In this document: one piece after another, positions 15,184 through 20,917 of the stretch | Layout of the letters: every line of letters begins with the position of its first letter | Numbering within the stretch: position 1 is the stretch's first letter | Source of the DNA: Sediminispirochaeta bajacaliforniensis DSM 16054 | Lineage (GTDB): Bacteria > Spirochaetota > Spirochaetia > DSM-16054 > Sediminispirochaetaceae | Direction: 5' to 3' | DNA length: 42,500 nt | NCBI RefSeq assembly: GCF_000378205.1 | Contig: NZ_KB899433.1 | Span: forward strand, 1-42,500 | Made by a program: the position numbers and the translations under genes | The notes under the pieces: generated by a model | Told to the model about the DNA's origin: nothing | The model's database searches: none | The model's input: only the letters and a program-made list of their open reading frames with translations

Positions 15184-15219
15184 TTTATCAGCAACTTGGA
15201 GTGCAGGCAGGAGGTTCCA

Positions 15220-16590
15220 ATGCCAGATAATTTTGATTTTTCCGTTCCCTCGCTTGGTGAACCCAATATACAGTCGCCGATTAAAATGTCGACGGTCAAA
15301 GGTGATTCCATTGCCAACTATGTCAGTGATTCCGAGCGGATCCTCTTTGAGATTGATGCGGCCGCCGGTGACACCAGGGGGCCTTTTAAGACCGAAGAGC
15401 TTCTGGAGCGTGCAGGACCGCGGGAGAAGGTTTACTTTAATCCTGCACATGTCCATGCCGCTGTTGTCACCTGTGGAGGTTTATGCCCCGGCTTGAACAA
15501 TGTGGTCAGGGCCATCGTCCGGTGCCTTTGGTACAGCTATGGTATAAAGCGTATTACCGGCATCAAAAACGGGTATCGCGGTTTTCTTTCCGAAAGTAAT
15601 TTCAGTACCCTGGAGCTCGATCCCGAGTATGTCGATGATATTCAGGCCCGAGGCGGTACCGTTCTTGGCTCGGCCCGGGGTGGTGGAGACAGGGTCGGGG
15701 AAATTGCCGATGCAATCGAACGCCTGAATATTAATATGCTTTTTACTATTGGAGGCGACGGTACCCAACGGGGGGCACTTGAGATTGCCGAAGAATTGGA
15801 ACGGCGAGCTCTGCGGGTTTCCGTGATTGGCATTCCGAAGACTATCGATAATGACCTCTCCTTTATTCAGCGTTCTTTCGGGTTTGAAACAGCGGTGGAA
15901 AAGGCTGTCGATGTTGTTCGAGGTGCCCATGTCGAAGCACATGATACCATCAATGGTATCGGCTTGGTAAAAGTGATGGGGCGGGAAAGTGGGTTTATTG
16001 CAGCCTATGCCGCGCTTGCCATGAGTGATGTTAATTTTTGCCTTATTCCCGAGAGTCCCTTTGATCTGGATGGTCCGAACGGCCTATTGGAAAGCCTGCG
16101 AAAACGCCTGCTTGATCGAAATCATGCGGTCATTTTGGTTGCAGAGGGAGCCGGGCAGGAGCTTGTTTCGGAAACGGGAGAGACAGATCTCTCCGGTAAT
16201 AAGCGTCTTGCCGATATCGGGGTGTTTTTGAAGGAAAAAATCAAAGCATACTTTAAATCCATCGACATGGAAGTAAATATTAAGTATATCGATCCCAGTT
16301 ACATTATTCGGAGTTCTCCGGCAAACCCCAACGATTCGATTTACTGCAGCAGGCTGGGCGCCCACGCGGTCCATGCGGCCATGGCCGGTAAGACGAAAAC
16401 GTTGATGAGCATGGTGAACAATACTTTTGTCCATCTTCCCATGCGGGTTGCGGTTTCTAAGCGTAAACACGTCAATACCGAAGGAAGTCTGTGGCGTGAT
16501 GTGGTTGAAAATACTCGGCAGCCGGTTAATATGTGTGACAAGGGCGAAAAAACACATGAAAAGGGTATGAAGCAGGAAGGGAAGAAGTAA
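15220..16590 (+). CDS. pfkA: 6-phosphofructokinase, trypanosome-type (group III)
   Basis: 456 residues from the ATG at 15220, which has AGGAGG 6 nt upstream. Phosphorylates fructose 6-phosphate. Motifs: [72 protein letters not shown]. The phosphate-donor positions read Gly (GGDGT, ATP type) and Lys (PKTIDND, usually PPi type). This G/K combination is that of trypanosomatid PFK, which uses ATP, so ATP dependence is the better guess. N-terminal extension of about 80 residues as in that group. Ends with a shared bidirectional terminator. Works with pgi, 3 kb downstream, in the upper Embden-Meyerhof pathway. Confidence 0.92.
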
Positions 16591-16671: not shown

Positions 16672-18840
16672 TTATCGGTTTATCATATCGGCATGCCGAA
16701 TGCCGGTTTCCGTTTCGGCAACTTCCCTTTGCGTCTCTTTTTTCTCTATCTGCTTACTTTTTCCCTTTTCTTTCTCCGTATCCAACACAAAGCCGGAGAG
16801 CAGGCTCGACAGCATTGTTACTACTTCTCTGTTTTGGGTGGCGACTTCCTTTAGGTGGGAAACTTCCTCAACGATATTTTCGTTGCCCTCCGCCTGATCC
16901 ATAGTCGCCTGCTGAATTTCGGAGAAAATCTGGACCAAGGTTGATATTGAAGATCTGATAATGCGATTTTTTTCTTTTTGCTCATGGGCGATTGATCTAA
17001 TTTGACTCGTTGCATCGACCAAGGAGTTGATCGCCTCAAGAATTTCCTCGGCTCCTGAGTTCTGCTCATCCATTGCAGCAGCAATCTCATTTATCAGATT
17101 CGTGGTTTTGTTGATGTCTGCCGTTACTCTTTGGAGCGAAACGCCGGCTTGTTCGGAGAGTGTAACCCCCTTATTGACCCGTTCGACCATTTCGTTGATC
17201 AGCGAGGTGATCTTCTTTGCACTCGTAGAGCTGTTTTCGGCAAGAGAACGAACCTCTTCGGCAACAACCGCAAAGCCCTTACCTGCATCACCTGCATGTG
17301 CCGCCTCGATGGCTGCGTTCATCGCCAGCATATTGGTCTGTGCCGCTATTTTGGTAATAACCCCGACAATATTGTTTACCTCTTCTGAAGAGACCTCTAC
17401 CTCTTTTACAGCCTGCACAGAGTTATCCACTGCCGATCGTCCCTCGTCGGCAACCTGCATGAGGGTATCTGCAAGGTCGTTGGCCCTGCCTGTGGCCTGG
17501 CTGACGGATTTTATGCTGGCGGCTATTTCGTTCATGGCACTTGAGGTTTGCTCGACAAAGCTTGCCTGGGTATTGACGTTTTCACTAATGGTATCAAGGC
17601 TGCCGAGCATGCCCTCGAGACTCAGCTTTGTATCGTTTACAACCGAGGACTGACGAGTCGCATTGACGCTTACCTGCTTAACAGCCGCAGCCATTTCATT
17701 GGTTGCGCTGACGGTGTTCTGAAGCACTTCTTCAAGGGTCTTACTCGAGTCGTTAACTTCCAAACTTGCCTGTACGATATCTTTGAGCATCAAGCGAAGC
17801 TTTTCGAGAAAAACATTGAGACGATCAGCCACATCCCCTATCTCATCGAATTGCGTGATGGTAATTCGTCTCGTTAGATCTGCGTTTCCGGTTGACAATT
17901 CTTCAAGCTTACGCGACAGGCTTTTTAGTTGCCGGGTTTGGGCCCGGGAAGCAATAAACTGAATGAGAAAGGCGATGATCAGCATGGTAATAAATACAAT
18001 CTGGAAAATCTTTTCGGGATTGAGTCGCTCCGTCTGTGCATTGTCCAAAGGAAAATCAATGCGGTCCGCCGGCACATTCAGTTTGGCCGAGACGCCATTT
18101 TTGTACTCTGTTCTCGCTTCATTCAGATCAATGTCGCCTTTAACGACCTTTTCAATAAGATCGGTAAATTGTGAGCTGCCTTGTATCACCGTACTACCGA
18201 CATCAATGAAGGTTAACATGAGAAAAGAGGCCAGAAAAACCACTACCAGTGTTTGCCTAAGAATCAAACTTTGCTCTCTGGTTCCCTTTTCCACCGAATG
18301 AAATCCAAGTATCTCCCTGGGGCGTTGAAGAATGATGGTGTTGAAACTATTCTGCAGCATTCCGAACACACCGCCGCTGGCCAGATTTTCAAGAACAAGA
18401 AATAGTATTTCCGTTGAAGAAAGATGCTGTTTCGCAATCTCATGAATTGATCCCAATTGCATGCAGAAAATATTTGCAAGGAGCACAATACGGGGAAGGC
18501 GGGAGAGAATTTTCCTGGCGCGCTGCTGCTCGTCGCTATCAACGTGCTCTCCCTTGAATTTGTTGAGCACTGTTTTATGAAGGGGCTTGAGATAGAAAAA
18601 GAGCAGTAAATCAAGAACAAGAATCTGGGGAAGAACGGTGAACAACATAAGTGTACCGATCCTCTCCACGATGATCGAAAAGGCGTTGACCCCATAGGTC
18701 ATTCCCTCTACCACCATCTTTAAGAGTTGGGTTGCAAATACACTGACAAAGATAACGAGTGTGATGTTTATGAGGATTCTCACCCTGAATGCCTGAAAAC
18801 GTTCACTGGAACGCAGTGTAGGAAACGACGTATGTGCCAT
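16672..18840 (-). CDS. Methyl-accepting chemotaxis protein
   Basis: 722 residues from the ATG at 18840, which has GGAGCC 6 nt upstream; a longer frame to 18891 has no such site. The N-terminal 310 residues hold several hydrophobic segments (for example [19 protein letters not shown] and [17 protein letters not shown]) and a modest extracytoplasmic loop rather than a classical PAS/Cache sensor. A HAMP domain follows ([19 protein letters not shown]). The signalling domain has the conserved hairpin [20 protein letters not shown] and [18 protein letters not shown]. Methylation-type Glu/Gln positions flank it ([17 protein letters not shown]). It couples through CheW/CheA to the flagellar motor. 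No che genes are adjacent. Confidence 0.93.
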
Positions 18841-18871
18841 CGAAGGCTCCTTGGGAAGAAAATTACATCTA

Positions 18872-18901
18872 ATGATAATCGACGTAATCATCTATGGTCA
18901 A
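18872..18901 (-). promoter_or_regulatory. Promoter of the chemotaxis receptor gene
   Basis: Minus strand TTGACC (18901-18896), 18-nt spacer, TATCAT (18877-18872). It resembles a housekeeping promoter, not the sigma28 flagellar type. Confidence 0.6.
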
Positions 18902-19061: not shown

Positions 19062-19090
19062 TTGACCATTCCGATTTGTTTGATTACGTT
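19062..19090 (+). promoter_or_regulatory. Candidate promoter of the small RNA
   Basis: TTGACC (19062-19067), 17-nt spacer, TACGTT (19085-19090). The -10 is weak (3 of 6 consensus bases). Predicted initiation is about 19097. Confidence 0.45.
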
Positions 19091-19096
19091 ACTGGA

Positions 19097-19283
19097 GAAA
19101 ATTGATGTGATCAATGGTTCATAGAACCGGAGATCGAAATGGCTTTTTTGTGATAAAGCTTGTAACCATTTCCAGCCAGAATGGTTTGCTTTATTGCAGA
19201 GAGCATGAAATCTTTTTTCATCGACCTCCTTTTAGATGTTCCCCCCAGGGTTTTGTACCTCCTTTTCCCTGGGGGGTTTTTTT
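19097..19283 (+). ncRNA. Candidate small RNA with two anti-Shine-Dalgarno-like motifs
   Basis: About 187 nt between the divergent receptor promoter and pgi. Inverted repeats: TTGAT-GTG-ATCAA (19102-19114), GGTTC-ATA-GAACC (19116-19128), AACCATT-N9-AATGGTT (19164-19186), ATGAAA-N5-TTTCAT (19205-19221). It ends with a perfect 10-bp terminator stem. ACCTCCTTTT occurs twice, at 19224-19233 (predicted single-stranded) and at 19257-19266 (in the terminator loop). This is nearly the 3' tail of 16S rRNA, so the loops could pair with ribosome-binding sites. An open frame starting at 19114 runs straight through the terminator and is not a credible gene. No end-to-end closing stem, so it does not look like 6S RNA. 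Confidence 0.55.
19241..19283 (+). terminator. Strong intrinsic terminator of the small RNA
   Basis: CCCCCCAGGG (19241-19250) pairs perfectly with CCCTGGGGGG (19267-19276) and is followed by TTTTTTT. The 16-nt loop contains ACCTCCTTTT. Confidence 0.9.
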
Positions 19284-19333: not shown

Positions 19334-20917
19334 TTAGCGAAGTAGTGTGTCGAAGGCCAAGAGTTCCTGGTCTTTTGTTTCTCCCGAAAGGAGCTTTTTC
19401 GTTAGAATCTTACCCAACTGGACCCCTTCCTGGTCGAAAGAGTTGATATTCCAGAGGAAGCCCTGAAACATGACCTTGTTTTCAAAGTGGGCCAACAGAG
19501 CTCCTAACACTTCGGGAGACAAGCGGTCGCCGACCAACAGGCTTGAGGGGCGTCCTCCCGGAAAGCTTTTGTTCGGATTCTCATCTTCTTTGCCCTTTGC
19601 GAAGGCGATGATTTGTGCGGCGAGGTTCGCGTTCAATTTCCTTTGGCTGCTGATTCCCGCCTCGTCGTTTCGGTCCTCTCCACGCTGACTTTTTTTGAAT
19701 CCGATAAACTGGAGAGGAATTATGTCGGTTCCCTGATGAAGAAGCTGGTAGAAGCTGTGTTGTCCGTTGGTTCCCGGTTCTCCGAAAACCACAGGTCCGG
19801 TGGAGTAGCCCAGCGATTTCCCGTCTCGATTCACCCTTTTACCGTTACTTTCCATATCCAACTGCTGAAGATGGGCAGGAAATCGGCTAAGGGCCTGACT
19901 GTAAGGAAGCACTGCGGTAACCGGATAGTGAAGGATGTTTCTAAGATAGAGGCCGATTGCTGCGTCCAGAAGGGGCGCATTTTCCCGAAATGGGGCGTTT
20001 AGAGCGATTGCATCGGTTTCAGCCGCCCCTTTGAGCAGTCTATCAAAGACTTCGGAACCAAAGGCGAGGGAAAGGATGACTCCTCCGACGGCGCTGGTTG
20101 AAGAGTAGCGTCCTCCGATGAAATCATCGATATAAAAACTATCCAGAAGCGTATCGGAGCCTGCAAGGGGACTGGTTGCGCTGGTAACGGCCACCATCTG
20201 CTTTCCAGGTTTCAGACCGGGAATTCCCTTTGATTCCAGCCATGAAAGTACCAGATCCCGGTTCGTAAGGGTCTCCTGGGTGGTCCCGCTCTTGGAAACC
20301 AGAATGAAGAGGGTACGTTCGGGGTCGATGCCCGAAAGCACGGCCGCAGCGTCGTCGGGATCGACATTGCTGATGAACAACCCCTTCATTTTGGCTTCCA
20401 CGGCTCCCTCCAGGGCGAGGTAGAGGGCACGCGGGCCGAGGTCAGAGCCTCCGATGCCGATCTGGAGCACCGTGGTAAAAGCCTTTCCCGTGGAGCCGGT
20501 GATCTCCCCGGCGTGCACCTTGCCGGCAAAGTCGGAAAATCGTCTCTGCTGTTCGCGATAAAAGGCTCCAATGTCCTGGCCGTCTTCAGCAATCACCGTG
20601 CCGGCCAGTTCTCCCCTGCAAAGGTGATGGAGCACCTTACGCCTTTCGCCGGTATTCATCACCCCGCCGCAGGCAAGAAGGCGGAATTTTTCGATGAGCT
20701 GCATCTCTTTGGTCAGTTGTTCGAGCAGTTCGAGCTGCTTCTCTCCGACTGGCATGGCTGCATAATTGTAGCTGAGACCAGCCCCCGAGGCGGCTGTTTT
20801 CTCGTCGATTGCGGAAGTGGTAAGCAGCTTTTCCAGAGAAAGAGGCGAAAGTGTTTCAAGGGCTTTGAAAGCCTTTGCCTGATCGAGGTCAATATATGAT
20901 ATGTTTGTTTTCTCCAT
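19334..20917 (-). CDS. pgi: Glucose-6-phosphate isomerase
   Basis: 527 residues, usual length for bacterial PGI. Interconverts glucose 6-phosphate and fructose 6-phosphate. SIS-domain motifs: VLQIGIGGSDLGPRALYLAL, FILVSKSGTTQETLTN, DDFIGGRYSSTSAVGG, and the catalytic-region FGEPGTNGQHSFYQLLHQG. The conserved C-terminal Lys is within the terminal helices (SFDQEGVQLGKILTKKLL). No Shine-Dalgarno sequence precedes the ATG. A TTGACA promoter is placed so that transcription would begin at the start codon. Convergent with the small RNA; no T-rich terminator seen for pgi itself. Confidence 0.96.
   Translation of the reverse strand: MEKTNISYIDLDQAKAFKALETLSPLSLEKLLTTSAIDEKTAASGAGLSYNYAAMPVGEKQLELLEQLTKEMQLIEKFRLLACGGVMNTGERRKVLHHLCRGELAGTVIAEDGQDIGAFYREQQRRFSDFAGKVHAGEITGSTGKAFTTVLQIGIGGSDLGPRALYLALEGAVEAKMKGLFISNVDPDDAAAVLSGIDPERTLFILVSKSGTTQETLTNRDLVLSWLESKGIPGLKPGKQMVAVTSATSPLAGSDTLLDSFYIDDFIGGRYSSTSAVGGVILSLAFGSEVFDRLLKGAAETDAIALNAPFRENAPLLDAAIGLYLRNILHYPVTAVLPYSQALSRFPAHLQQLDMESNGKRVNRDGKSLGYSTGPVVFGEPGTNGQHSFYQLLHQGTDIIPLQFIGFKKSQRGEDRNDEAGISSQRKLNANLAAQIIAFAKGKEDENPNKSFPGGRPSSLLVGDRLSPEVLGALLAHFENKVMFQGFLWNINSFDQEGVQLGKILTKKLLSGETKDQELLAFDTLLR

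Follow-up and report, generated by a model that had tools for sequence, protein, structure and literature searches.

The window, 42,500 nucleotides of the Sediminispirochaeta bajacaliforniensis genome, carries a 6-phosphofructokinase gene (pfk) on the forward strand (15196..16590; Pfam PF00365, E 7.8e-64; synteny cluster c0). A methyl-accepting chemotaxis (MCP) gene (16672..18891; PF00015) and a glucose-6-phosphate isomerase gene (pgi; 19334..20917; PF00342, E 4.9e-120; synteny cluster c1) lie on the reverse strand. The intergenic space between these two reverse-strand genes holds a candidate small RNA of ~187 nt (19097..19283, forward strand), convergent with pgi, whose 5′ end is inferred from a putative promoter and its 3′ end from a terminator. 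The stretch occurs only once in its own genome, and comparison with relatives revealed no conserved open reading frame across the unit. A conserved small protein on the reverse strand, where AAAAGGAGGTCGATGAAAAAA resembles a Shine-Dalgarno (SD) sequence and start, was considered and rejected, as neither the frame nor the ATG is kept in relatives.

The putative promoter (19062..19090, forward strand) was read by eye as TTGACC (19062-19067), a 17-nt spacer and TACGTT (19085-19090). It falls under the threshold of a consensus scan, and its -10 element is weak. An equivalent TTGACA-17-TAAGTT, followed by the identical TACTGGAGAAAATT, is present in locus L004 from another genus of the same taxonomic family. 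A sigma-70 promoter scan across all member loci of the RNA gave scores equal to those of shuffled sequences.

The decamer ACCTCCTTTT occurs at 19224-19233 and 19257-19266, both inside the 187-nt unit, and nowhere else on either strand of the window, as the preliminary description had reported. Only 0.15 copies are expected in the window, and two were reached in 2 of 100 shuffles. We annotate both as anti-SD motifs (ACCUCCUUUU). The unit has a predicted folding energy of -64.3 kcal/mol compared to -44.2 kcal/mol for shuffles (z -4.0). Its 3′ end (19241..19283, forward strand) is the strong terminator that had been proposed: a 10-bp stem formed by CCCCCCAGGG (19241-19250) and CCCTGGGGGG (19267-19276) around a 16-nt loop, followed by U7 (19277-19283). 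The second motif sits in this loop and is predicted to be open (unpaired probability 0.6-1.0), again in line with the initial reading. The first motif had been described as single-stranded, but in this species its CUCC is predicted to pair with GGAG at 19129-19132 (unpaired probability ~0.02). According to the MFE fold and accessibility, GGAGaUCGA (19129..19137, forward strand) is thus a possible internal lid over the first motif; it is missing from L004. Over 64 two-motif members, the first motif has a median unpaired probability of 0.62. The first motif and its flanks, CAUC (19219-19222) and GAUG (19235-19238), span 19219..19238 on the forward strand. The flanks could form a small hairpin with the motif inside, and a potential 4-bp closing helix is present in 28 of 54 two-motif members compared to 9.5 in shuffles. 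The CAUC/CAUU:GAUG form of this helix changes on one side only. The flanking UUUUUCAU is a possible anti-start-codon seed; an alternative in ~20 close members is that CAU(C/U) forms a helix with GAUG that encloses the first motif, and these members show one-sided changes only.

The decamer had been said to match the 3′ tail of 16S rRNA. The 16S rRNA of this organism ends in ACCUCCUUUCUGA (noted also as GGATCACCTCCTTTCTGA), so the whole decamer matches at 9 of 10 positions, and the word that the RNA and the 16S rRNA have exactly in common is ACCUCCUUU.

BLASTN retrieved the unit in 25 genomes of a set of 60 relatives and in 86 of 395 Spirochaetia genomes. We then built a covariance model on the 3′ part of 30 BLASTN-found sequences. 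At E ≤ 0.01, with E-values that are rough, it extended the family to 214 of these 395 genomes, spread over 79 of 133 genera. The 3′ half is 100% identical in the sister genome, a single 4,653,970-bp contig that we take to be Sediminispirochaeta smaragdinae (G001). Members are also present in genomes that we assume to be Treponema denticola ATCC 35405 (G185; L126), Spirochaeta thermophila DSM 6192 (G010; L137 and L140) and T. primitia ZAS-2 (G246; L133), and some genomes carry two or three members according to the model. There were no model matches in four genomes of 1.0–1.5 Mb from the same class (G077, G022, G044 and G060), presumably Treponema pallidum-like and Borrelia-like, which suggests that the RNA was lost along with genome reduction. 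Only four model matches fell outside the class in a phylum-wide sample, all with E-values of 0.002–0.009, and this number is within chance expectation. As a control for class specificity, we scanned 84,980 genomes with an exact DNA pattern. Of the 56 contigs matched, 52 were spirochaetal; the gaps are longest in the four others, which appear to be due to chance.

We examined which parts of the RNA are constant using an alignment of 58 members. The terminator stem exists in 38 versions with compensatory changes, and most of its pairs are maintained by two-sided changes (CG, GC, UA and AU at one position). The loop contains CUCCUU in 57 of the 58 members and CCUCC in 53, and 45 have an additional upstream CCUCC; counts of CCUCC among model matches are partly circular because the covariance model itself contains CCUCC. 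The set found by BLASTN, which is less circular as evidence, already shows varying stems and constant loops. By the preliminary description, relatives that conserve the terminator and not the decamers would speak against such an RNA; the opposite is seen, as relatives keep CCUCC and the stem changes.

A further constant element lies upstream: UGUAAC (19161-19166) and GUUU (19184-19187), together 19161..19187 on the forward strand, are kept across the family. The 110 nt preceding the model match contain UGUWAC in 56 of 90 members, compared to 5.1 in shuffles. This UGUAAC...GUU element lies outside the covariance model, so that its presence among the matches is non-circular evidence for the family. 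Its columns are 88–100% identical with mostly fixed spacing, and they vary so little that no covariation supporting a helix was seen in the 58-member alignment. Its sequence is possibly that of a protein-binding site, although we found no known element that matches it.

Several sub-forms were observed. In L140, L155 and L156 there are two consecutive hairpins with ACCUCCUUU in both loops, for example CUUCUCGGGUUUCACCUCCUUUCCCGAGAAG preceding the terminator, and the genome that carries L140 also has a second, different member (L137). Members from the Sphaerochaetaceae (L035, L037, L038 and others) combine the same anti-SD 3′ part with a different conserved 5′ part (CAGAAAGAGAACGAC / CAGAAAGAGAACGACAUGCUUCUGC...), as though one 5′ domain had replaced another. 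The BLASTN homologue L028, on the reverse strand, has a variant first motif (GAUCUCCUUUU, with UCUCC) and an intact loop motif.

The genomic context is also recurrent. The most frequent gene order among members is pfk, the RNA, and then pgi in convergent orientation. At 64 loci the pfk cluster precedes the RNA on the same strand, and at 52 pgi lies downstream in convergent orientation, counts that come from partly redundant loci. Where pfk is directly upstream on the same strand, as in many families, it is 90–330 nt from the RNA. In the window, the opposite-strand MCP gene (16672-18891) splits pfk from the RNA, and most other families have no such gap. Some members adjoin unrelated genes instead of pfk and pgi, which fits the expectation for a stand-alone unit.

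We assessed SD use and candidate targets on 1.2 Mb of the S. smaragdinae genome. Genes were called with a simple script that prefers starts with SD sites, a bias that is equal for all gene classes. Strong anti-SD pairing was predicted for 64% of the called genes compared to 25% of complemented control windows (66% and 25% with a 4-mer core), and the excess over the control is the informative number because the start picker favors SD sites. Strong SD sites are thus common, and the premise that the organism uses many leaderless messages, which the RNA would spare, was not supported.

The first motif is part of UUUUUUCAUCGACCUCCUUUU, whose antisense reads AAAAGGAGGUCG-AUGAAAAAA. Only two places in the genome match the pattern AAAGGAGGT-N(0-9)-ATGAAAAA: one is the RNA's own locus in antisense, and the other is where a sugar-type solute-binding protein gene (PF01547) with the leader sequence AAAGGAGGTCGCAATGAAAAA starts. 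When S. smaragdinae genes were ranked by predicted pairing with the first seed, solute-binding-protein genes ranked high (AUC 0.85, p 2e-12), with 8 in the top 5% compared to 1.6 expected. SD strength alone gave an AUC of 0.77 and CCUCC with shuffled flanks gave 0.66 ± 0.07. Sphaerochaeta has lost the CAU flank, and there the full seed reached an AUC of 0.79 on 10 solute-binding-protein genes, which is no gain over the 0.81 of SD strength or the 0.87 of the bare core. All 10 solute-binding-protein genes found there have GGAGG and AUGAAR, and strong SD sites are a general trait of solute-binding-protein mRNAs regardless of the seed. Taken together, the two rankings make uptake genes the natural targets of an anti-SD RNA in these bacteria; specificity beyond SD strength is predicted for one genus only. 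We searched for Hfq (PF17209) and detected no match in this genome, whereas 5 genomes, among them E. coli, gave a match in a control search of 14 named genomes.

We compared the RNA to known families. Neither the window nor any of 20 member loci contained a match to an Rfam family at gathering score, and a known Rfam RNA, a riboswitch or 6S RNA was rejected for lack of a match. The best sub-threshold matches were anti-hemB (RF02837; 16.3 bits against a cut-off of 49.5) and suhB/mmgR (RF00519; 15.7 against 41). These are likewise stem-loop small RNAs with C-rich, anti-SD-like motifs, but the scores are far under the cut-offs and lie among other chance matches, and the RNA is not a member of either. 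The alpha-r14 family was absent from matches up to E 10, with the caveat that Rfam may not model every alpha-r14 subfamily.

The closest parallels are in design. The alpha-r14/NfeR1 "cuckoo" RNAs carry a constant anti-SD motif (CCUCCUCCC) in unpaired regions on strongly diverged stems, are Hfq-independent, and have predicted targets that are mostly ABC transporters (PMC10746234). Our RNA resembles them in the constant anti-SD motif in unpaired parts of hairpins, the diverged stems, the predicted ABC-transporter targets and the lack of a detectable Hfq. However, they are alphaproteobacterial and have three hairpins with CCUCCUCCC, whereas the spirochaete RNA has one or two anti-SD hairpins with the motif ACCUCCUUU(U), and neither a UGUAAC element nor a pfk/pgi locus is described for them. 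AbcR1 and AbcR2 (alpha-r15) use a UCCUCCC loop to repress, at their ribosome-binding sites, mRNAs that encode periplasmic ABC-transporter proteins, and Hfq-binding signatures are reported for them (PMC3712013). They share the anti-SD loop and similar targets, which are predicted in our case, but they differ in sequence and in those Hfq signatures, given that the genome studied here has no Hfq match; their anti-SD motif is in a 5′ hairpin, whereas here it is also in the terminator loop. Two features that mark CCUCC-loop anti-SD small RNAs are found in the spirochaete unit, namely a motif displayed in hairpin loops (unpaired, at a predicted probability >0.5, in 98% of 64 members) and its constancy while stems diverge. 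The RNA would thus work like alpha-r14/NfeR1 and AbcR, yet we detected no homology to either and consider it no relative. The design is apparently convergent with that of the alphaproteobacterial RNAs.

A conserved RNA-like unit, with a constant anti-SD loop on changing stems, lies at a pfk/pgi locus in a genome with no detectable Hfq. We consider it likely that this unit encodes an Hfq-independent, trans-acting small RNA that occludes chosen SD sites, and the RNA is probably the first member of a Spirochaetia family that has not been described before. It would display copies of the 16S 3′ tail (ACCUCCUUU) either in loops of hairpins only or with one copy in a loop and the other in a stretch that opens conditionally. 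These copies would compete with 16S rRNA for SD sites, and pairing at these sites would stop ribosome loading. Pairing with SD sites through CCUCC, as first proposed, has strong comparative support, and its action is predicted. We infer that a transcript is made from the unit, that its partners are mRNAs and not a protein, and that it represses them. With less confidence, our best guess for the main targets is the mRNAs of ABC-transporter solute-binding proteins, with their strong GGAGG and AUGAAR; with such targets, the RNA would connect uptake to central sugar metabolism.

A general brake on translation, acting on all strong SD sites and without preferred targets, seems unlikely to us. By itself, the loop motif would pair with GGAGG wherever it occurs, and the Sphaerochaeta seed does no better than the bare anti-SD core, as such a brake would predict. 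The first seed of the window's genus, however, favors solute-binding-protein starts beyond what CCUCC with shuffled flanks achieves, and the linkage to pfk and pgi suggests a metabolic role. The RNA might instead be a sponge or decoy in which a copy of the 16S tail titrates a tail-binding protein (e.g., Era, a processing nuclease or a ribosome-associated factor) and thereby tunes 30S maturation. That the word kept constant in the loops equals the 16S tail would suit this role, as would the resemblance of the fixed UGUAAC...GUU element to a binding site. Era recognizes GAUCA preceding CCUCC, but this part is not kept in the RNA. The motif runs on as UUUU or UUUYCC rather than UUUCU, and in the genus of the window the start regions of one gene class are predicted to pair better when the flank UUUUUCAUCG is included, so that we regard a protein decoy as improbable.

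The unit could also lack any regulatory role of its own and simply end the pfk transcript as its terminator or 3′ UTR, or serve pfk and pgi together as a bidirectional terminator. The same-strand pfk directly upstream at 90–330 nt in many families is what such an arrangement would look like. We nevertheless judge this very improbable: a terminator has no need of a constant loop, which remains unchanged across 38 versions of the stem, and the putative promoter is common to another genus. In addition, the MCP gene parts pfk from the RNA in the window, and other members adjoin unrelated genes. A small RNA processed from a 3′ UTR, which would still be a regulator, is possible.

Few regulatory RNAs are annotated for spirochaetes, with six small RNA families in a 2022 survey (PMC9029176). 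Our search of open-access papers found no spirochaete anti-SD small RNA. The broadest form of our preferred reading, in which an Hfq-independent anti-SD RNA encoded between pfk and pgi couples glycolysis to uptake across the class by silencing solute-binding-protein mRNAs, having arisen independently and converged in both design and targets with the alphaproteobacterial RNAs, is offered tentatively, and we lean against holding it in full. About half of the sampled Spirochaetia genomes carry the candidate family, among them one that is presumably from the oral spirochaete Treponema denticola. The family would be a class-wide small RNA in bacteria that lack Hfq, as judged from the genome examined, and a second, apparently unrelated case of a copy of the ribosome tail displayed in loops with the same predicted target bias. 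Why anti-SD RNAs settle on uptake genes would thereby become testable.
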